A stretch of 64,000 nt of DNA from Vibrio tubiashii ATCC 19109. GTDB taxonomy: Bacteria; Pseudomonadota; Gammaproteobacteria; Enterobacterales; Vibrionaceae. The position numbers and the translations under genes were made by a program. The DNA is taken from contig NZ_CP009354.1 of the NCBI RefSeq assembly GCF_000772105.1, positions 992,001 through 1,056,000 on the forward strand, in the 5' to 3' direction. Position 1 is the first letter of the stretch. Each line of letters starts with the position of its first letter. Positions 16,949-54,500 of the stretch are shown piece by piece. Under the pieces are notes generated by a model. That model made no database searches. It saw only the letters and a list, made by a program, of their open reading frames with translations, and was not told the DNA's origin.

Positions 16949-17963
16949 CCAATCTTTGCTTTCAAGTGAACAAGCGTTAGATGATTACTTCTCTGCTTTG
17001 TTAGAGGAGTCACTTGAAGCAGAAGTCAACGAGCTCGACCAAGAGCAAGCTCCTGAACTGGAGTTGGTTGCTGAAGCTCACGATGAACATGGCGAACATC
17101 AGCTTGAACCTATGGTTCAGTCAGTGGCTGAGAAGAGCTACTACCAAGCGCCAACAACAGAAGTCGAAGTACCCAATTTAGAAGATGTCGAGCGTCTTCT
17201 AGAGCAGTTAGAAAGCACCAACCCAGTTGCAGAGCTTGAACTGGAAGAGGTGATGGAGCAAAACACGGTTGATATCGCTCAAGTTCAGACTCAAACTGCC
17301 GTTGAAGAGATACAAGACTGGGTGGTTGATGAACCTGAAGTATTGGTCGAAGAGCCTGAACTTAAGGTCGAAGTTCCCGATCTTGATGAAGTCATCACTG
17401 AACCAGCGATTGCTGAGCCTGAAGTAGAAATCGATACCAGCATCGAAACCGAGCCAAGTCTAGAGACACAAACCGGTGGCAGCGATATTGGCGTTTGGCA
17501 CTCAACGCAAAGGGATGTCGACTTTCAAGTGCTCTATTTTGATGTCAATAGCGTGACGTTTGCAGTTCCGCTTGATGAGCTTGGTGGTATCCATAGAATC
17601 GCTGAACTTAACCATTTAATCGGTCGCCCAGATTGGTACTTAGGTTTACAAACCAGTCGTGAAGCTCAGCTTGATGTCGTTGACACAGCTAAGTGGGTGA
17701 TGGCAGAGAAGCTGCAAGATGACAGTTATAAAGAGCAGTACCAGTATATTGTCATGCTAGGTGCAAGCATGTGGGGCTTGGCTTCCACGCAGTTAATGGG
17801 TACTGAAGCATTAAATCCAGAAATGGTACGCTGGCGAGAAACGGCAGGGAAACGCCCTTGGCTTGCTGGTATGGTAAAAGAAAAAATGTGTGCTTTGATC
17901 CACGTTGAAGCATTGATAGCTATGCTTAATGCAGGACTTGATGTTAAAGCATTAGATAAATAG
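16941..17963 (+). CDS. parP: ParP, CheW-like array tether
   Basis: 340-residue protein. The first 175 or so residues are very acidic, rich in Glu, Pro and Val and probably disordered. The C-terminal part (about 185-335) is a CheW-related array integration domain (VLYFDVNSVTFAVPLDELGGI, then LNHLIGRPDWYLGL). In Vibrio, ParP prevents CheA from leaving arrays and links it to ParC. The ATG at 16941 lies within the parC 3' end. Annotation pipelines usually call it a CheW-domain protein; position between parC and cheW supports the ParP name. Confidence 0.9.
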   Translation: MTNQSLLSSEQALDDYFSALLEESLEAEVNELDQEQAPELELVAEAHDEHGEHQLEPMVQSVAEKSYYQAPTTEVEVPNLEDVERLLEQLESTNPVAELELEEVMEQNTVDIAQVQTQTAVEEIQDWVVDEPEVLVEEPELKVEVPDLDEVITEPAIAEPEVEIDTSIETEPSLETQTGGSDIGVWHSTQRDVDFQVLYFDVNSVTFAVPLDELGGIHRIAELNHLIGRPDWYLGLQTSREAQLDVVDTAKWVMAEKLQDDSYKEQYQYIVMLGASMWGLASTQLMGTEALNPEMVRWRETAGKRPWLAGMVKEKMCALIHVEALIAMLNAGLDVKALDK

Positions 17964-30303: not shown

Positions 30304-31032
30304 TTAAATCATCGGTTTGATGATTTTAGATATGCTTTCAGCGATCTTAGCCACATCTTCACCTTCGTCACCGACGATGATCATGCTGGTATCTCCCATT
30401 GGTTCCACAACCCCAGCCATACCGTCTTCATTAAAGTCGACCGTTTGGTTAGATGGAATCCCGGTTAAGAACAATGTGACTTTGCCTTTTTCCCCTCTGA
30501 ATACCATATGTAGCGCATTGGATTTACCGAAGCCGCAGTGGTTTAAGTAATACACATGGTACGGAAAGGTTTCAGATAGTTGGTGGTCAAAAGGCATCAT
30601 CTTGGCGTTGATTTGTGATGATTTGACCTGCTCATCAAGATTTTGGATAAATGGCTTCTCATCAACGACATGCTGAAGCGCCGTCGTTGCTAAGCTCGCT
30701 TGCGCTGGAGAGACAACCAGATTACTCCAATTTAGCTGGCCAACCAGCAAACCTGCCACAAAGGCTACCGAAGCTGCCATTGCCATCGCCTTGCGAGCAA
30801 AGTTTGGTCGCACAACGTTATCTCTGGTGACAGACGTCTGATTAAACAAAATCTTATCAGCCAGATCTTCAGGTACGTCGACTGCCATAGCTTTTGCAAT
30901 CTGTTTGTCGAGATCGAGGACTTCATCAGCGAACTGTGCGTTTTGCTCACTTTCTTTTATTGCCGCACATATCTCACTATCTCTGTGTTTAGGATCGGAC
31001 ATGATGCGTCGGCGAAATTCTAATTCATCCAT
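30304..31032 (-). CDS. DUF3379 protein, probable anti-sigma factor
   Basis: 242-residue protein with a cytoplasmic N-terminal domain (about 1-78), one membrane helix (about 80-100, AMAMAASVAFVAGLLVGQLNW) and a periplasmic C-terminal domain. Matches the DUF3379 family, which accompanies ECF sigma factors in Vibrio and relatives. No zinc-binding HxxxCxxC motif is visible, so it is not a ZAS-type anti-sigma. Its start overlaps the sigma gene stop by 8 bp, a strong sign of a stoichiometric pair. The anti-sigma role is inferred from this arrangement and topology. Confidence 0.82.
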   Translation of the reverse strand: MDELEFRRRIMSDPKHRDSEICAAIKESEQNAQFADEVLDLDKQIAKAMAVDVPEDLADKILFNQTSVTRDNVVRPNFARKAMAMAASVAFVAGLLVGQLNWSNLVVSPAQASLATTALQHVVDEKPFIQNLDEQVKSSQINAKMMPFDHQLSETFPYHVYYLNHCGFGKSNALHMVFRGEKGKVTLFLTGIPSNQTVDFNEDGMAGVVEPMGDTSMIIVGDEGEDVAKIAESISKIIKPMI

Positions 31033-31588
31033 TTTGCTGCCCCCTATGTGTATTCTCTGAATCTAACATCTCTTTTAACTGGTTCCTCGCCCTAAACAGC
31101 CGAGTCATTACCGTATTCTTATTAAGACCGAGTATCTCGCCGATTTCTTCACCGCTGAATCCCCCCACAACTTGGAGGAACAGTGGCTCGCGATAATCCT
31201 CCTCAAGCTTCATTATCTGAGCTTGAACCCATTGAGTTTGATGGTGAGGATCGTCTGAAACCTTAGCATCGTTGCCATGGTCGTCGATATCTACCAGATC
31301 AAATTGTTTGCGCTCAAAACGGCGCGCATTTTCTCGTCTTAATATGGTGATAAGCCAAGATTTAGCCGCTTTTTCGTCTTGCAAGCTATCTAGAGATTTC
31401 CATGCACGCAGGCAAGTTTCTTGTACTAGGTCTTCTGCGATGGTTGGATCTTTACACAACCAATAGGCGTACCTGTATAAGTCTCTGTGATAGGCCCTGA
31501 CGAGCGCTTCGTATTTTCTTTGTCTGTCCATATCCGAGTTGACCGGATCATTGGACTTTTTCTTTCCAAAAAAGTTGATGATTGACAC
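31025..31588 (-). CDS. ECF-type RNA polymerase sigma factor
   Basis: 187-residue sigma-70 family factor. Region 2 (ALVRAYHRDLYRYAYWL, then IAEDLVQETCLRAWKSL) and region 4 (LEEDYREPLFLQVVGGFSGEEIGEILGLNKNTVMTRLFRARNQL) are complete; there is no region 3, as in ECF factors. The start is GTG at 31586-31588 with a perfect GGGAGG 5 nt upstream; the ATG at 31531 is less likely. It is cotranscribed with the membrane protein at 30304. The inducing signal is unknown; the neighbours suggest envelope or lipid state, but that is only context. Confidence 0.9.
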   Translation of the reverse strand: MSIINFFGKKKSNDPVNSDMDRQRKYEALVRAYHRDLYRYAYWLCKDPTIAEDLVQETCLRAWKSLDSLQDEKAAKSWLITILRRENARRFERKQFDLVDIDDHGNDAKVSDDPHHQTQWVQAQIMKLEEDYREPLFLQVVGGFSGEEIGEILGLNKNTVMTRLFRARNQLKEMLDSENTHRGQQNG

Positions 31589-31821
31589 AGGAGCCTCCCT
31601 CGTTGCTCTGTGATTTTATTGTTGTTGTCACTGCGACTAGCAGGGCAGTGGTACATATTCATTACTTAGCAAGCTAAAGTTATTGCTTGATTAGACGCCG
31701 CAATAAAAGCGCAGTAATTGATGTTGTGAATAGGTGAAGTGAAATATAACAGCATCTGTTAGCTAGTTTTCCACTTAAAATTGATCTATTTCAAAATCTG
31801 GCACACTCGAAAGGTTATAGT

Positions 31822-31987
31822 AACACCTGTCATCTAGTCGGTGTTTACACTGACAAGTTGAGCAAGATGACACTTCCTTTTGAAGGCTGACTTTACTTTC
31901 TCCTAATCAGGAAACTGATTATTTCAATTGGCGTAAGTTAATTGCTTTATATATTCCAACCACACAGTCTTGTGTGGTTTTTTTTTG
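31822..31987 (+). ncRNA. Candidate structured small RNA upstream of fadIJ
   Basis: About 165 nt with no ORF but four ordered structures. TGTCATCT (31828-31835) pairs with AGATGACA (31865-31872) and encloses GTCGGTGT/ACACTGAC (31837-31854). CTTC/GAAG (31873-31885) follows, then TAATCAG-GAAA-CTGATTA (31904-31921), and a strong terminator hairpin with nine or more T (31958-31987). TATAGT at 31816-31821 could be its -10, with no clear -35. No plus-strand gene lies upstream, so the terminator implies an independent transcript. I do not recognise it as a named Vibrio sRNA. Alternatively it is an attenuated long leader of fadI. Confidence 0.55.
31958..31987 (+). terminator. Strong orphan terminator
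   Basis: AACCACACA (31958-31966) and TGTGTGGTT (31971-31979) with a GTCT loop and a T-run to 31986. The plus-strand orientation has no gene before it, which supports an sRNA. Confidence 0.88.
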
Positions 31988-32113
31988 CCAGCAATCTCTA
32001 CGACAACCATTCTACCTATAAGTTACACCTATTTTATCAAGTTATCTCTTAGTCCAGTGTTATTTATCGCCATTGGCTGATAAGCAGCGTAATCTGTCGT
32101 AAGTCACGTTTAT

Positions 32114-32154: not shown

Positions 32155-32171
32155 ATTCTGGTCAGACCTCT
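32155..32171. promoter_or_regulatory. FadR operator of fadIJ
   Basis: ATTCTGGTCAGACCTCT contains the intact FadR core TGGTnnGACC. It covers the predicted transcription start, the classical position for FadR repression of fad genes, to be relieved by long-chain acyl-CoA. Confidence 0.75.
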
Positions 32172-32189: not shown

Positions 32190-33497
32190 ATGGGCAAGCA
32201 GGAAGTGAAAACTCGCTCAGGAGAACGTGTAGCGATTGTCGCAGGATTGCGAACACCGTTTGCACGTCAAAGTACAGAATTTAGTCAAGTCCCGGCGGTA
32301 GACCTCGGAAAAATGGTCGTGAGTGATATGCTTGCTCGCACTGAAATCGATCCAAAACTCATTGAGCAGGTTGTGTTTGGTCAGGTTGTACAAATGCCTG
32401 AAGCACCAAACATTGCACGTGAGATCGTGCTTGGAACGGGGATGGACATTAATACCGATGCCTACAGCGTGACTCGTGCTTGTGCGACGAGCTTCCAATC
32501 AGCCGTAAACGTTGCCGAAAGCATTATGGCGGGAACCATTGATGTGGGTATTGCTGGTGGCGCGGACTCCTCTTCTGTTCTGCCAATTGGTGTTTCGAAG
32601 AAACTAGCGGCAAACCTGCTAGCTCTGAGTAAAACCAAGACGCTCAGTCAAAAGCTTAATATTCTTAAAACTCTGTCATTGAAAGATTTGATGCCAGTAC
32701 CGCCTGCAGTCGCTGAGTATTCTACTGGCTTATCAATGGGTCAAACGGCGGAGCAAATGGCGAAATCGCATGGCATTACTCGTCAGGCACAAGATGAACT
32801 TGCTCACCGTTCTCATACGCTTGCAGCTCAAGCTTGGAATGATGGCAAGATAGAAGGGGAAGTGATGACGGCATTCCCTGAACCTTATAAGAAGTGGATC
32901 GCTAAAGATAACAATATTCGTGAAGATTCGACGATTGAGGGTTACGCAAAACTTCGTCCTGCATTTGACCGCCAGTACGGCAGTGTAACCGCGGCCAACA
33001 GTACGCCTCTTACCGATGGTGCTGCGGCAATCATGTTGATGCGCGAAGGCAAAGCGAAGGAGCTAGGATTAGATATCATGGGTTACATCCGCTCTTATGC
33101 TTTCTCTGCAATTGGTGTAGAGAAGGACATGCTTATGGGGCCTTCTTACGCAACGCCGATGGCGCTCGAACGCGCGGGTATCGAGCTCTCAGATCTGACG
33201 TTAATCGATATGCATGAAGCCTTTGCTGCGCAGGCGCTTTCAAACGTTAAGATGTTCGCAAGCGATAAATTTGCCCAAGAGAAGCTGGGTCGCTCCAAAG
33301 CGATTGGCGAAATTGATATGGATAAATTCAATGTGTTAGGTGGCTCGATTGCGTACGGTCACCCATTCGCTGCGACAGGCGCGCGCATGATCACTCAAAC
33401 GTTGCGTGAACTGCAACGAAGAGGTGGTGGTTTAGCATTGAATACAGCCTGTGCCGCAGGCGGTTTAGGCGCAGCTATGGTACTGGAGGTAGAGTAA
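32190..33497 (+). CDS. fadI: 3-ketoacyl-CoA thiolase FadI
   Basis: 435-residue thiolase that cleaves 3-ketoacyl-CoA to acetyl-CoA and a shortened acyl-CoA. Nucleophile C98 in [12 protein letters not shown]; catalytic His in the [10 protein letters not shown] block; C-terminal Cys in [13 protein letters not shown]. The length (435, not about 387) and order thiolase-then-hydratase mark it as FadI rather than FadA. AAGGAG precedes the ATG. Its last base overlaps the fadJ ATG (TAATG). Controlled by the PsrA-like and FadR sites upstream. Confidence 0.96.
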
Positions 33498-36328: not shown

Positions 36329-37204
36329 CTAGTGAAGATTGTAAGCAATAACAAAATCAATAAACAAACGGACTTTTTCTGGTAGATGATCTTTATGGTT
36401 ATAGAGCATATAGATATCGCGTGGGTTAGCACTCCAGTCTTCAAGCACGCGTACTAAGCTACCATCCTCAATGTACTCCCTCAGCATGACATCAGGCATA
36501 AGAGTGATGCCTAAACCTGAAGAGCATGAACTTCTTACTACGTCTAAGGTGTTGGCTTGGAAGCGGCCTTTATCATTATTGATAACCGTTTCACCGCTAT
36601 TGTTCGACAGCTGCCATTTAAGTAGTGGCGATCCTTTAAGCAAAGAGTGGTGATGCAGATCTTCTGCGTGCTTAGGTTCTGGATTTAATTTCAGATATTC
36701 AGGGCTAGCGACCAGAATATCAGCCACTGAGCTGATTTTGCGCGCGATTAGACTAGAGTCACGCTGCGGACCAACTCGAAAAATGACATCCCACTCAGTT
36801 GGGTCCAACTGATCGGCGTGGTTGCTGGTCGTTAGCTCAATATTGATGTCAGGGTACTTAGCCATAAAGGCATTGTACATAGGCATCATCATGCGCTTAG
36901 TCAGGTTTGAAGGCGCGGTAATACGAATTTTACCCGCAGCCCCTCGGCACTCATCGGTTAACTCCTCTGCGGCTGACGCTAAGCGGCTAAGCAGAGGAGA
37001 ACATTCATTGTAAAAACGTTCACCTGCTTCTGTAAGGGAAAGTTTACGAGCATGGCGATTGAGAAGGCGTAGGTTCAAAGAATCTTCTAGAGCCTGAATA
37101 CGTCGCGTTATTGTCGCTACAGGAATCATCGTTTTACGAGAAGTTGCGGTATAACTCCCGTTTTCGACTACCAGTCTAAATAGGTTTAGATCATCTAATT
37201 TCAT
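36329..37204 (-). CDS. LysR-family transcriptional regulator
   Basis: 291 residues from the ATG at 37204 (MKLDDLNLFRLVVENGSY); a GTG at 37216 would add four. The N-terminal winged helix-turn-helix (about 5-60, with ATSRKTMIPVATITRRIQALE) is followed by a substrate-binding domain (about 85-285). The sequence resembles the LysR group often paired with oxidoreductase genes, but the ligand and targets cannot be read from it. No clear Shine-Dalgarno. It is divergent from the RssB-like gene and convergent with the nitroreductase. Confidence 0.88.
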   Translation of the reverse strand: MKLDDLNLFRLVVENGSYTATSRKTMIPVATITRRIQALEDSLNLRLLNRHARKLSLTEAGERFYNECSPLLSRLASAAEELTDECRGAAGKIRITAPSNLTKRMMMPMYNAFMAKYPDINIELTTSNHADQLDPTEWDVIFRVGPQRDSSLIARKISSVADILVASPEYLKLNPEPKHAEDLHHHSLLKGSPLLKWQLSNNSGETVINNDKGRFQANTLDVVRSSCSSGLGITLMPDVMLREYIEDGSLVRVLEDWSANPRDIYMLYNHKDHLPEKVRLFIDFVIAYNLH

Positions 37205-37445
37205 TGTATCAGACACACATTTTTACGAATTTAGTTAATTTATATGTATATCAAACGTCAAAGTTTGAGTCACATCAACAAGTTTATCGATATTTGTTAT
37301 TCCATACATATAGTATGCAACAAGGCTTCAAAGTGGAAGATTTGTATAAATCGCAGTTCGAGACTACTTTTTAAGGAGTGTGTAGAACTAAATACAACAA
37401 TAACAATAAAGAGCAGTAACATTAGTTTGTGTGAGGCAAAGATTT

Positions 37446-48500: not shown

Positions 48501-51500
48501 CGGTCTATGATGACTTTAGCTATGACGGTAAAGCCAATGGCATGGGTGCTGGTAATCGCCAGATTGTACTTGATCTCTATAAGTTCGGCCCTGATACATA
48601 CCGAAAGCATTTGGCTCAACATTACTACGATATTATGACGAGCAATGGAATAGAATCTAACGTCGCGCAAGCCTACGCTGATGTCATTTCCAAAGCTAAC
48701 CCAAATTTGGATGGAACTCCTATTTTTGATAAAGAAGGAGAAAGTATTGATAAGCTTCCTCCTCAGCCGACTATCGTGATCCAAAGTGGCAGAGAAACCA
48801 CTGTTGGAAGTAAGCGTTATGTTGCTGGCCAATTGGAATCAAAAATTATACTGGAGGACCCTTCTGGCATCGATACAAAAGATGGGAGTCAACCTAAGTT
48901 TGTCACTAGATGGTACAAGCAAGGTGACCCAAATACCCCGATCGATTTAGATCTTGAAATAACTGAAGGCGGAGCGAGTACGAGCTATCGCAAAGAGTAT
49001 GGGTTCACTCTAAATACACAGTCTACTAATTTACCAGGTATTGTTGAATTTGCGTTGGAAACTAGTGCAAAAGACTTGCAAGGTAACGCCTATGGTTATG
49101 ATGGTAAAGTCCCTCACTTACAGTCACTCTACGTCGATAATGACTACCCTAAAGCGAGTTATGTATTACCGAATGGCATTGAGTCTGATGAAGTCTATCT
49201 GAATGCAAGCTACGTACAGGAGTTGACGTTTAAGGTCGAAGATACAGTCGGTGATAAGTTGGATCAAAGGGGACTAACTTTTTCAAAGTTAAGTGGGGAG
49301 AAAGTCTCTTTCACACACGATCTGTTTTCTAGCAACACGAATGAATTCTTTAAAGCCAAACTCTGTACCGGTACTCGTTGTGCAGAGCAAGGCAAAATCA
49401 TCTACCCAGGTGAAGGTGAATGGTTAGTATCCGTATCGGCTGAAGACCACCTTGGTAATAAAGTTACTGACGGGACCTCTTCAGCACCGAAGTTTAAGGT
49501 ATTAATTGATTCGAAGGCACCGGTTGTCAATGGAAAAGTGATTTCCAATCGTCTAGGTGGAAATGCAGCTTGGACGCCTGATATTAGCTGGGGATTAAGT
49601 CCGGGTAAGCAAGTTGACGTTTTACTGAAAACGGGAGCTGGCAAGCTCGTGAACCTGAAGCACTATGAGGTTGAGCCTCCAACCAGTGATGAACCTTATT
49701 TGTTCGGAACACAGCCAGACGTTAGAGTTCGGTTGATTCCTACGGCTTTCGACTATAAGGAAACAAATACGTTCAAGGTGGTCGCAGCGAACAGCGCTTT
49801 CCCTGCGAGTACAAGTGAAGGAGAGTTTGAGTTTAAAGTCGACAATAAAGGCCCAGATATTGTTTTAGATAGCCCATGGATTTCCGACGCAGTCTCAAAA
49901 GAAAGCTATGTAATGGGTCGTAAATTTAATATTAGATTCAGTTCTGTGACCGACGATTCAGAAGTGAAAACGGTTTCTCTATGGCAGGATGGAAAAGATA
50001 CTGCCTTATATACCCTCGAGCCTAAGAACCCTAGTCAGCCATTTGAAATGTCTATTGGGACTGATCAGAGTGATCAAATTCAGTTAGACCCAGACGATAA
50101 ATCAGTCAAACTGATTGTAAAAGCGACAGATGAATATGGTTTTGTCTCTGAGTCTCAGCCAAGCAAAATATTGCTAGATAGAGAAGGCCCTACGTTATCT
50201 TTACATGGCTATAAGCCAGAGCGTGAGGATATTTACTACCTTGGTAAATATGTATTTGACGTGATTGCTGAAGACCTTGATAAAGAAGGTGTACCTTCAT
50301 TGGCTGGTGTGAACAAAGAGAGCTTGGAATACTGGACGTATACAGATATCCCACCTCAGACTGAAACCGGAACAAAAATCGGCGAGACGCTGAAGTTACC
50401 TTTGGGTGACTTGAAAGATGGTGATAACTGGGTACGTCTAAAAGGTAACGATGTTCGAGGAAATACTTCTACGTCTGACTTTAAAGTTAAAGTTCACAAC
50501 AGCATGCCTAGTATTAAGTCTTATGCGTTAGCGTACAAAGATGATCAGACGAATATTGACGGTGCAATTACTCGTGACGTTCCAGTCGTCGTGACGATGG
50601 AAGTAGAGGACGTAAGTGGTATTGATAAAATTGAGGCGACTTATAAACACTCTGCTCAACCGCAGTCTTCCGATCTTGCTTTCATAGAGATTTCGAAAGG
50701 TAAGTATCAGGCTGAATTGTCACCTGCAGACCTTCCAGAAGATGGAAGGTACGACCTTAGAATTAAGGTTTTCAATAACGTGAAATATAACGCGGAGTCT
50801 GATCGTAAAGTTAATGACTTTACAAAAACGATGAGCGTGCAAAGACAAGGCGTTGACCTTACTATAGCGACGCCACATCCGTTCCAAAGTCATATCTCTG
50901 GCCCTGAGTTATCGGTAACGTTTAATTCTGTTGGAGAAGTGAAAGCTAAGACTTTAGAGTGTTGGGTGAGAGAAAACTACACTTCGGATAACGCACCATC
51001 TGATAGTTACGCGTACTCGGGTGTTATTGATAACCCTCAAGAACCTTATTCTTGTACTGTTAGAAGTGACCGCAGTATGTCGACCGACCCAGTAGTTCTG
51101 ATAACTAGAACTATTGGTACCAATGATAAATCTACAGTAAAAAAATTCCGCTTTAATATGGTCGATACAGATGCGCCGGTTGTTAAGCATGGTGATACGT
51201 ACCAATTTGTTGGTACTGAAGTTTCTGATGACTCTCCGGATGGGACAAACAAAATGCTTCAATTCTCGTTAGACTTTGAAGATAAGTTATCTGGAGTAAA
51301 CACCTCTAATAAAGATGCTTACCCTAAACTAGTTAGAAACCGCGGAAATATGGCCTTTACTCCTCAAACCTGTACTACGCAAACAGAAGGTAAGACGTCA
51401 TGTACTTACATTGAAAAGTACAGTGATGTTATTGATGGTTTAAGTTCTAGTCACGACTACAAAATTAAGAACTTGACCGACATTGCGGGGAATGTAGCTG

Positions 51501-54500
51501 CTGACCATAGCTTGACGTTGTTACTCCCTACTGTTAATCCGACTGTTGAAATTCTAAGTCCTCAGACGGATTCGGTAATTGACGGGCAGCAAGAACTTAG
51601 AGTGTCATTTAAAATCAAACGCAACGACAATTCTAGGTTAGATAATATAACAGCTAACGTAGGTGGTACGTCATATAACAAGAGAGATAACGATGACATG
51701 TTCTCCGACCTTAAGGTATGCGGAACTGGAGATTTGGCTGGTTATGATTGCTCGACGTTCTCTACCCAGTTGTCTAAAGATACTGATGGTAAAACATTGA
51801 AGGTTAGCATTTCTGCCATTGATGTATGGTCGAATAAAAGTAGTGATAGTATCAATGTCAAAGTTGATCAATCACCACCTACTATTGGCGAAGAGGTATT
51901 TATTACTCAGTCAGGGTCCGACAAAATTCGTTTCAGATTTAACATTAAAGATGAGGTAAGTGGCCTAGCCAAAGTTAAGTACGAAGTTCTTAACCCTTCA
52001 TTTGAAGAAGAAAAACTGACGGATATGGACTACTTTGAGTTAGATAAATCACAGCTTGAAGGTATTGATAGCATTCAAGTGCGCATATATGCGACTGATA
52101 AAGTGAACTTGACCACTTCAGCTTCTAAGACTGTCGATATTAAGACGCCGGAAGTTACGGTGAGTTTTGAAGGCATTACCTCATTAGATGGTGGCAAGCT
52201 ATTACTTAAAAACAACAGCCAGAGTTTTACTATTACGACAGTTGATAAGGAAGGTATAAGGGCTTCTCAATATAGCTTAGAACTAGTCCCAAGCACTGGA
52301 GACAGCTTGAAATATACTGGTAACATTAACTCATCAAGTGCTAATGGCACGATGAACTTTACGGTTAATGATCAAGCTGCTTATACCTTTAAGGTAGCCG
52401 TAACGGATTCTATTGGTAGACAAGTGAAGAGCTTCAAGCTTTTCAATGGTAATTACGATGATACAGGCATTCCTACCATTGTTGACCATGAGCTACCAAC
52501 GGTTTCGATAGCAAGCGCGACGCAGCTATCCCAGGTTCCTGATAACGGTAGATATCAGCTAGATGTCACAGCACATGTCACTGACAAGAATTTGAATGTG
52601 GTCAGCTCATTTGCAGATAATGGTAGCGGACGCTTTAACCCTCAATCAGTCACAAAGCCTACTAACGAGTCGGATCCTTATGTATTCCACTACCTTCTTG
52701 CGCCGGGGAGTTATACGTTCAATGTGAGCGCCACTGATCTAGCAAATCAGAGCGCTGAACGTACGATTGGCGCGAAAGTTGAGGCAGCGACAATCCCGAC
52801 CCTAGCAATCTCGACATCAGCTACTCCCCCTCTCGCGGGAGGGGAAGAGGCGACTCTAACGTTTAAATTTTCTGAAGAAGTCAAAGATTTTGACTTCTCA
52901 GATGTAAAGCTTACTGCGAGTGATAGTGGGGGTATTGGTCAGCTGAAACAAGAAACTTGGGCGACAGCTGACAATATTACTTGGACGGTTAAGTACTTAA
53001 GTCCAGTCGGCGAAAACAAAAATATAACGATACGGGTTGATGATAATAGTTACCAGAGCTTAAACACTATCCCCGGAAAAGGGGATAGTTTGCTTTTGGG
53101 GGTTGAAGGCGTTTTACCAACCCTTACCAATGCGAGCTTTACTCCGGGTTACCAAGCCATTGGTCAAAGCGTTGATGTGAGACTGGAGTTTGATAAAGAG
53201 CTGCAGTCTGCGACCGCGACCTTAGGCGGCACGACCATCAGTTCACTGGCGGCGACGGCAGACAAAAAAGTGTGGACAGGTAACGTCATGGTACCGAACA
53301 GCGTTGACCGCAGTGTGGGACTCGTGGTGAGCAACTACACCGATACACTAGGTAACGTAGGCGATGATAACACCTCACACGCGTTACCGATTACCCCGAC
53401 TATTGCGATTGGCAGCATTAATGGTGGTAATACGGTAAACGCTTCGGATGCAGCAGCGGTGGCTATTATTGGTAGCAGTACGCGTTTTGCATCGGGTGAA
53501 TCGTTAACGGTTCAAGCGAGTGACACGAACGGTGGTAAAACCCCAGAAACGACCGTCAATGTATCAGCTGACGGTAGCTGGAATGTGAACCTAGACATGA
53601 GTGCGCTGCAAGACGGCCAAATTACCGTGACGGTAAAAGGGGAGAACAACCTGAATGCGGTGGCGACGCCAGCAACAGGCACGGTGCAAATGACCCGAGC
53701 GAAGCCAAGCTTAACGGCGGCGACCTTTACACCGGGTTACCAAGCCATTGGTCAAAGCGTTGATGTGAGACTGGAGTTTGATAAAGAGCTGCAGTCTGCG
53801 ACCGCGACTTTAGGCGGCACGACCATCAGTTCACTGGCGGCGACGGCAGACAAAAAAGTGTGGACAGGTAACGTGACAGTACCGAGCAGCAGTGACCGCA
53901 GTGTGGGACTCGTGGTGAGCAACTACACCGATACACTGGGTAATGTAGGCGATGACAACACCTCACATGCTTTACCGATCACCCCGACTATTTCGATTGG
54001 TAGCATTAATGGTGGTAATACGGTAAACGCTTCGGATGCAGCGGCGGTGACTATTATTGGTAGCAGTACGCGTTTTGCATCGGGAGAGTCGTTAACGGTT
54101 CAAGCGAGTGACACGAACGGTGGTAAAACCCCAGAAACGACCGTCAATGTATCCGGTGATGGTAGCTGGAATGTGAACCTAGACATGAGTGCGCTGCAAG
54201 ACGGCCAAATTACCGTGACGGTAAAAGGGGAGAACAACCTGAATGCGGTGGCGACGCCAGCGACAGGCACGGTGCAAATGACCCGAGCGAAGCCAAGCTT
54301 AACGGCGGCGAGCTTTACTCCGGGTTACCAAGCCATTGGTCAAACCGTTGATGTGAGACTGGAGTTTGATAAAGAGCTGCAGTCTGCGACTGCGACTTTA
54401 GGCGGCACGACCATCAGTTCACTGGCGGCGACGGCAGACAAAAAAGTGTGGACAGGTAACGTCATGGTACCGAGCAGCAGTGACCGCAGTGTGGGACTCG

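Follow-up and report, generated by a model that had tools for sequence, protein, structure and literature searches.

The element described here lies in a 64,000-nt stretch of the Vibrio tubiashii ATCC 19109 genome (the window), where a structured RNA is encoded on the plus strand between a divergent ECF sigma factor gene (minus strand) and the fadI thiolase gene (plus strand; Table 1). On the minus strand (30304-31588) the ECF sigma gene is followed by a DUF3379 gene and then by two fadL-type genes; the DUF3379 protein may be an anti-sigma factor of the ECF sigma. The sequence TCTGGTCAGACCT (32157-32169), 5′ of fadI, resembles a FadR site. A similar sequence, GGTCAGACC, is visible in the fadI upstream regions of several genomes that lack the RNA.

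Table 1. The ECF sigma-fadI intergenic region, its flanking genes and the box pattern; positions are those of the window.
Feature	Position	Strand	Basis or remark
ECF sigma factor gene (VC1045 counterpart)	31025..31588	-	Pfam Sigma70_r2, Sigma70_r4_2
Conserved promoter block	31777..31796	+	FNR-type box TTGATCTATTTCAA at 31781-31794
-10 element TATAGT	31816..31821	+	21-nt gap to box; no -35 at 16-18 nt
Vcr043-type sRNA, ~159 nt	31828..31986	+	start inferred from -10, end from terminator
5′ domain, P1 (8 bp) around P2 (7 bp)	31828..31872	+	double-sided changes
Word ACTTCCTTTTGAA, partly common with FnrS ACTTCCTTTTTTGAA	31872..31884	+	sequence comparison
Near-invariant core, likely pairing region	31881..31906	+	31896-31904 complementary to grxA ribosome-binding site
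GAAA-capped hairpin, 7 bp	31904..31921	+	fold
8-bp helix absent from the sequence-only reading	31925..31944	+	fold; hardly varies
Intrinsic terminator, 9 bp and nine T	31958..31986	+	fold, terminator listing
fadI thiolase gene (VC1046 counterpart)	32190..33497	+	Pfam Thiolase_N, Thiolase_C
TTGATNNNNNTCAA occurrences	17269-17282, 31781-31794, 37265-37278, 51027-51040, 52065-52078		window pattern search

The folding energy of 31828-31987 was lower than that of any of 200 shuffled sequences (z = -3.51), as was that of 31816-31990 (z = -3.69, 0/200). The minimum-energy fold consists, in order, of P1 and P2, a C/U-rich stretch with a weak 5-bp helix, the GAAA hairpin, an 8-bp helix, a linker that stays open, and the terminator. 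Most of this had been described in an earlier reading of the letters made without database searches (the sequence-only reading): P1 indeed has 8 bp (31828-31835 with 31865-31872), the GAAA-capped stem 7 bp (31904-31910 with 31915-31921), and the terminator 9 bp (31958-31966 with 31971-31979) with nine T at 31978-31986. The P2 hairpin has its one G-U pair and 7 bp (31837-31843 with 31848-31854) instead of the 8 bp claimed, and the proposed CTTC/GAAG hairpin can form 4 bp and is absent from the minimum-energy fold. The helix formed by 31925-31932 and 31937-31944 had not been described.

Covariation was examined in Vibrio. When 196 Vibrio genomes were searched by blastn with 31700-32000 as query, 170 gave a match; 118 of the matching loci were fetched, and the 60 that were less than 95.5% identical to each other formed the structure alignment. 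Changes on both sides were observed in 11 of 42 pairs (shuffled mean 6.5), with 66 doubly changed cells (15.3 in shuffles) and a covariation score of 0.149 (0.093 shuffled). Each of five covariation measures was above all 500 shuffles, and 99.5% of pair cells held standard pairs, compared with at most 49.7% for slid versions. Double changes were distributed over P1 (2/7 pairs), P2 (7/7) and the terminator helix (2/10), and the three inner helices had none within these 60 Vibrio sequences. Thus, of the helices in which the sequence-only reading had looked to compensatory change, P1 covaries; the GAAA stem hardly varies in Vibrio and shows no double change there, and in other genera a shifted hairpin occupies the position. 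These results confirmed that the structured RNA is real. As had been stated, no plus-strand gene lies upstream (the nearest upstream gene is on the minus strand) and no ORF of at least 80 aa overlaps the element. A TTG-led short frame, LSKxTLPFEG (31856-31889, plus strand), overlies the invariant GTTGAGCAAGA; it is open in 111 of the 118 loci and shifted in seven, a coded peptide is therefore unlikely, and this candidate was rejected.

A covariance model made from the 60 Vibrio sequences found the RNA in 122 of 150 Vibrionaceae genomes, representing 9 of 13 genera. A second model, made from 45 family-wide sequences (chosen from 64 candidates, without the diverged L187 and without L181, which the pattern failed to pick up), was run under strict filters on 247 genomes of the order; 14 matched, every one of them Vibrionaceae. 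Vibrio, Aliivibrio, Photobacterium, Enterovibrio and Grimontia were among the listed matches of a 20-mer from inside the RNA; a match of this 20-mer in a Saprospiraceae bin (L233), which had no box, was taken as chance. A search of the plasmid collection gave no match. A 21-nt core hardly changes: all 45 sequences of the family-wide alignment agree throughout 31881-31902, with L187, a weak match outside that alignment, departing from it.

The most conserved DNA at the locus includes an upstream block that the sequence-only reading had overlooked. Over the 118 loci, the majority-base frequency was 0.95 in 31777-31796 and 0.99 at the -10 (31816-31821), with 0.45 in 31710-31776, 0.53 in the spacer (31798-31813) and 0.43 past the terminator (31990-32015). 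The FNR consensus is TTGATNNNNATCAA, and TTGATCTATTTCAA agrees with it in 9 of 10 defined bases; its right half-site, TTCAA versus the consensus ATCAA, counts against an FNR reading. The strict pattern, TTGATNNNNNTCAA with a TATANT -10, was present in 115 of the 118 Vibrio loci, the remaining three differing in the right half of the box, and the gap between box and -10 was 21 nt in all 118. These loci had been found with DNA that included the box, hence the recount on loci found without it. Forty further loci were hand-picked (39 from other genera, one Vibrio) from the 122 genomes positive with the first covariance model, which did not contain the box: 37 had the strict box, three had TTGATCTGGTGCAA, and all 40 had the 21-nt gap, so that the gap is the same in all 158 loci. 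Among the listed matches of the 20-mer with enough upstream DNA, 104 of 112 were strict, seven had one or two right-half changes at the same gap, and one was a chance match.

The -10 at 31816-31821 predicts a start at ~31828, in agreement with the 5′ end near 31825 expected in the sequence-only reading. No -35 was present at 16-18 nt from TATAGT and no sigma-70 promoter was listed there; a sigma-54 promoter or a normal -35, looked for by eye at the RNA start, was rejected. Class II activators bind at about -41.5, and the centre of the box is at -40.5 from the predicted start, a class II position whose offset from -41.5 counts against the FNR reading. With a TTGATNNNNATCAA-like box, a fixed gap and no -35, the DNA thus appears to have the anatomy of a class II FNR promoter, and FNR is the putative activator of the RNA. 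The box-gap-(-10) pattern was not enriched in the genome of V. tubiashii (14 occurrences versus 8 for the reversed pattern), an uninformative count that does not favour the FNR reading.

The sequence-only reading had treated the RNA as an orphan that matched no named Vibrio sRNA. Its locus (the VC1045/VC1046 gap), its direction and its size match those of V. cholerae Vcr043. In the accessible part of PMC8545128, Vcr043 is placed between VC1045 (sigma-70 family) and VC1046, opposite to VC1045, and runs at ~160 nt on Northern blots. The window RNA lies in the same ECF sigma-fadI gap, has the same direction and a predicted length of ~160 nt, and ends at its own terminator; we file it by synteny as the Vcr043 orthologue. 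The identity is one of locus; the likeness in sequence was read in two species closely related to V. cholerae, namely V. mimicus and V. metoecus, both of which carry the same RNA. Rfam gave no gathering-score match in the window and holds no family for Vcr043-type RNA; at E up to 10, 31750-32020 had four chance matches only (E 4 to 9.2). The view of the element as an independent small RNA held up on its conserved -10, its terminator, its covariation and the ~160-nt Northern signal of the V. cholerae counterpart (PMC8545128, accessible part).

The expression of Vcr043, its dependence on Hfq and RNase E, and effects on rpoS, grxA and sdhC have been demonstrated in V. cholerae, as described in the accessible parts of the papers concerned. 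The stability of the RNA depends on Hfq (PMC5089854) and RNase E processes it into several stable forms (PMC7398697); its overexpression raised an rpoS-lacZ fusion ~3-fold (PMC8545128). It has many RIL-seq contacts, yet is called uncharacterised, with a link to electron transport merely suggested. Three of its four validated RIL-seq targets (grxA, vc0036, sdhC) have functions in electron transport, and grxA and sdhC are reported as regulated, the direction not being stated in the part seen (PMC9732341). Given these targets and the FNR-type box, the role in lipid or envelope control that the sequence-only reading had suggested from the neighbouring genes found no support. Vcr043 was detected at similar levels at all stages of growth in LB (PMC8545128), a pattern that gives no hint of an oxygen switch; anaerobic cultures are unmentioned in the accessible part of that paper.

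Complementarity between the core and candidate targets was scored as the longest run of perfect complementarity to 31866-31914 in the region from -45 to +40 relative to the start codon, in 30 target genomes picked by hand (14 for sod, 9 for fnr) and with 200 shuffled cores per target. Conserved complementarity was obtained for grxA starts (mean 8.23 nt in 30 genomes, 0/200 shuffled cores as good), sdhC starts (7.10 nt in 29 genomes, 3/200) and fadI starts (6.84 nt in 64 loci, 4/200). The starts of sodB (6.17 nt in 12 located, 32/200), rpoS (6.19 nt, 21 of 30 located, 45/200; scored at the start region only) and fnr (5.25 nt, 8 of 9 located, 193/200) did not stand out. The grxA match falls on the ribosome-binding site (AGGAGAAAG versus 31896-31904 in the window's genome); it is at least 9 nt long in 16 of 30 genomes and at least 8 nt in 20, and just 5-7 nt in some. 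In most of the genomes listed, the sdhC match falls within codons 1 to 6; it is at least 9 nt long in 7 of 29. By duplex energy with the core, sdhC ranked 52nd and grxA 70th of 375 start regions of the same genome, and with the upstream word 130th and 268th; when the whole 81-nt stretch was used, the predicted helices were too long and the result was discarded. These ranks are modest, and the claim that grxA and sdhC are targets therefore rests on conservation. The fadI starts beat 196 of 200 shuffled cores over the 64 loci, with only a short match, and no strong one, seen by eye in the window's own copy; fadI is possibly a side target, or the signal a plain likeness of ribosome-binding sites.

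We consider it probable that the element is an Hfq-dependent, trans-acting sRNA of the Vcr043 group, with its own class II FNR-dependent promoter and its own terminator and with a role in the response to oxygen like that of FnrS. At low oxygen, FNR would bind the box and recruit RNA polymerase. The resulting RNA of ~159 nt would be bound by Hfq and processed by RNase E, and the near-invariant CUGACUUUACUUUCUCCU within it would pair with the ribosome-binding sites and first codons of aerobic and redox genes (grxA, sdhC), which would be turned down, and other pairings of the RNA would raise rpoS. Anaerobic induction in V. tubiashii, and all activity there, we infer from the DNA. The RNA itself is already known, as Vcr043. 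Within the literature searched, the following are new: an FNR-type promoter that hardly varies, the absence of this promoter together with the RNA, the occurrence across the family and the oxygen-limitation reading; no published link of Vcr043 to FNR or oxygen was found in the literature on Vcr043 and on Vibrio FNR or anaerobic sRNAs, as seen in part, with subscription journals and supplements largely outside it.

The closest known counterpart is FnrS (RF01796). In two enterobacterial FnrS loci, 22 nt separate TTGAGCGAA[AG]TCAA from CAATAT; a 5′ hairpin follows, and ACTTCCTTTTTTGAA stands at nt 50. In the window RNA, numbered from 31828, ACTTCCTTTTGAA stands at nt 45. The apparent likeness covers the FNR-type box at the class II position, the gap before the -10, the 5′ hairpin, the ACUUCCUUUU word near nt 45-50 and the terminator. 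The fnrS-I mutation U57-U59 falls in the region of the FnrS word near nt 50 (PMC8595263, accessible part), and FnrS targets aerobic and redox metabolism, including the glutaredoxin gene grxD (PMC10993149, accessible part), which resembles the targets of Vcr043. In contrast to FnrS, the Vibrionaceae RNA has the invariant CUGACUUUACUUUCUCCU core as an extra feature, and sodB, an FnrS target, has no conserved match to it (at most 5-8 nt in each of 12 genomes, about what shuffled cores give). The family ranges also differ: among 247 genomes of the order, FnrS matched 16, which belong to two families (f19 and f11), and none in Vibrionaceae.

It is unlikely, although it would be compatible with our preferred explanation, that the RNA is a true, far-diverged homologue of FnrS and not an analogue. 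The order of parts (FNR box, 22- or 21-nt gap, -10, 5′ hairpin, ACUUCCUUUU(UU)GAA near nt 45-50, terminator) would suit common descent, and one sequence (L179), the best of nine scored, shares the 15-nt FnrS word exactly (1 of 500 shuffles as good). However, the window RNA shares 10 nt of the FnrS pairing word ACUUCCUUUUUUGAA, a weak match equalled by 29 of 500 shuffles, and in the other seven sequences 10 to 306 of 500 shuffles were as good. The FnrS model had no match in the window at E up to 10, the Vibrio covariance model does not find FnrS, and the family ranges and sodB result given above also argue against homology. Judged by anatomy, our best reading is that the RNA would work like FnrS; identity with FnrS is not established. 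Two further sRNAs are of a comparable kind. AniS of Neisseria is reportedly an FNR-linked, anaerobically induced sRNA. PaiI of Pseudomonas is anaerobically induced, as proposed here for the Vibrionaceae RNA, and depends on NarXL according to the part of the source available. Both belong to other lineages than Vibrionaceae and are likened to it by description only.

The activator could also be CRP or another protein of the CRP/FNR family, so that the same sRNA would carry a carbon-source signal suiting the fadI neighbourhood; we regard this as quite unlikely. CRP and FNR sites are related, and the window's genome has a second CRP/FNR-family member, which scored 54.7 bits with the FNR model. However, the CRP consensus halves are TGTGA and TCACA, and the box has TTGAT and TTCAA in nearly every locus. 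In favour of FNR, the FNR model gave one strong match (495-512 bits) in each of nine genomes picked by hand. All nine FNR orthologues have the cluster cysteines that serve in oxygen sensing, as well as the helix VETISRLLGRFQ.

We asked whether box and RNA are kept or lost together, and compared the fadI upstream regions of 26 hand-picked genomes with no or weak RNA match. Eight had the box, all with the 21-nt gap and with a T8 run at a distance of 209-252 nt; one of these (G016) has a recognisable RNA and in the other seven (G083, G102, G107, G144, G202, G204, G223) the RNA body is strongly changed, with GTTTCCTTTTAG[AG]CTGACTTCAAT still seen by eye in G083, G107 and G144. The other 18 lacked the box, and 15 of them keep the ECF gene. 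A T8 run occurred somewhere in 1.4 kb in four of these 18, with no G+C hairpin seen before it by eye. Box and RNA were thus lost jointly. By eye, remains of a decayed RNA could be recognised in two genomes (G088, locus L450; G067, L451), in which the ECF gene and fadI are intact and both the box and the terminator are degraded; no remnant was visible in the box-less G095. In the fadI upstream regions L453-L458 and L474, the box, gap, -10 and terminator are kept and the RNA between them is almost wholly different; there the promoter, to judge from its sequence, is conserved longer than the RNA body.

A cis-acting role, in which the RNA is mainly a terminated leader (attenuator) of fadI, is very unlikely. 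The gene is a constant neighbour (next in 40 of 40 loci), and according to a review the V. cholerae RNA was initially listed among possible 5′ UTRs (PMC5089854, accessible part). Against this, the strong conserved terminator is followed by the poorly conserved DNA noted above (0.43), no antiterminator fold was seen in an unsystematic look, all 26 genomes in which the RNA match is weak or missing retain fadI, and Hfq dependence and trans targets of Vcr043 are published, as far as the sources were seen. That the box serves the divergent ECF sigma gene and not the RNA is scarcely credible: the promoters of these divergent genes are said to overlap in V. cholerae (PMC8545128, accessible part), but five of 40 loci with box and RNA have no ECF gene detected within ~1.2 kb (four of genus g11, and L185), 15 loci keep the ECF gene and lack both, and the gap to the -10 of the RNA never changes, so that the box belongs to the RNA.

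Returning to the FNR-driven sRNA, we lean towards a broader view, held with less assurance, in which the Vcr043 group would be the oxygen-limitation sRNA of Vibrionaceae: a counterpart of FnrS that is driven by FNR and whose origin is separate or no longer traceable. Its promoter and core would be nearly frozen, its hairpins (in a few lineages nearly the whole body) rebuilt behind this promoter, and rpoS would tie the loss of oxygen to the general stress response. If true, Vibrionaceae would gain an oxygen-limitation sRNA of the enterobacterial FnrS kind, and FNR control would explain the electron-transport targets of Vcr043. The near-invariant FNR-type promoter names a signal, with which the purpose of Vcr043 becomes directly testable, and the lineages without both box and RNA are a natural experiment.

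Boxes of this type are also present elsewhere in the window, where TTGATNNNNNTCAA occurs five times versus 0.89 expected (0 of 100 shuffles reach five; Table 1). One of them, TTGATGTGACTCAA (37265-37278, minus strand), lies ~49 nt before a LysR-type gene (36329-37216, minus strand), with a TANNNT at class II spacing.
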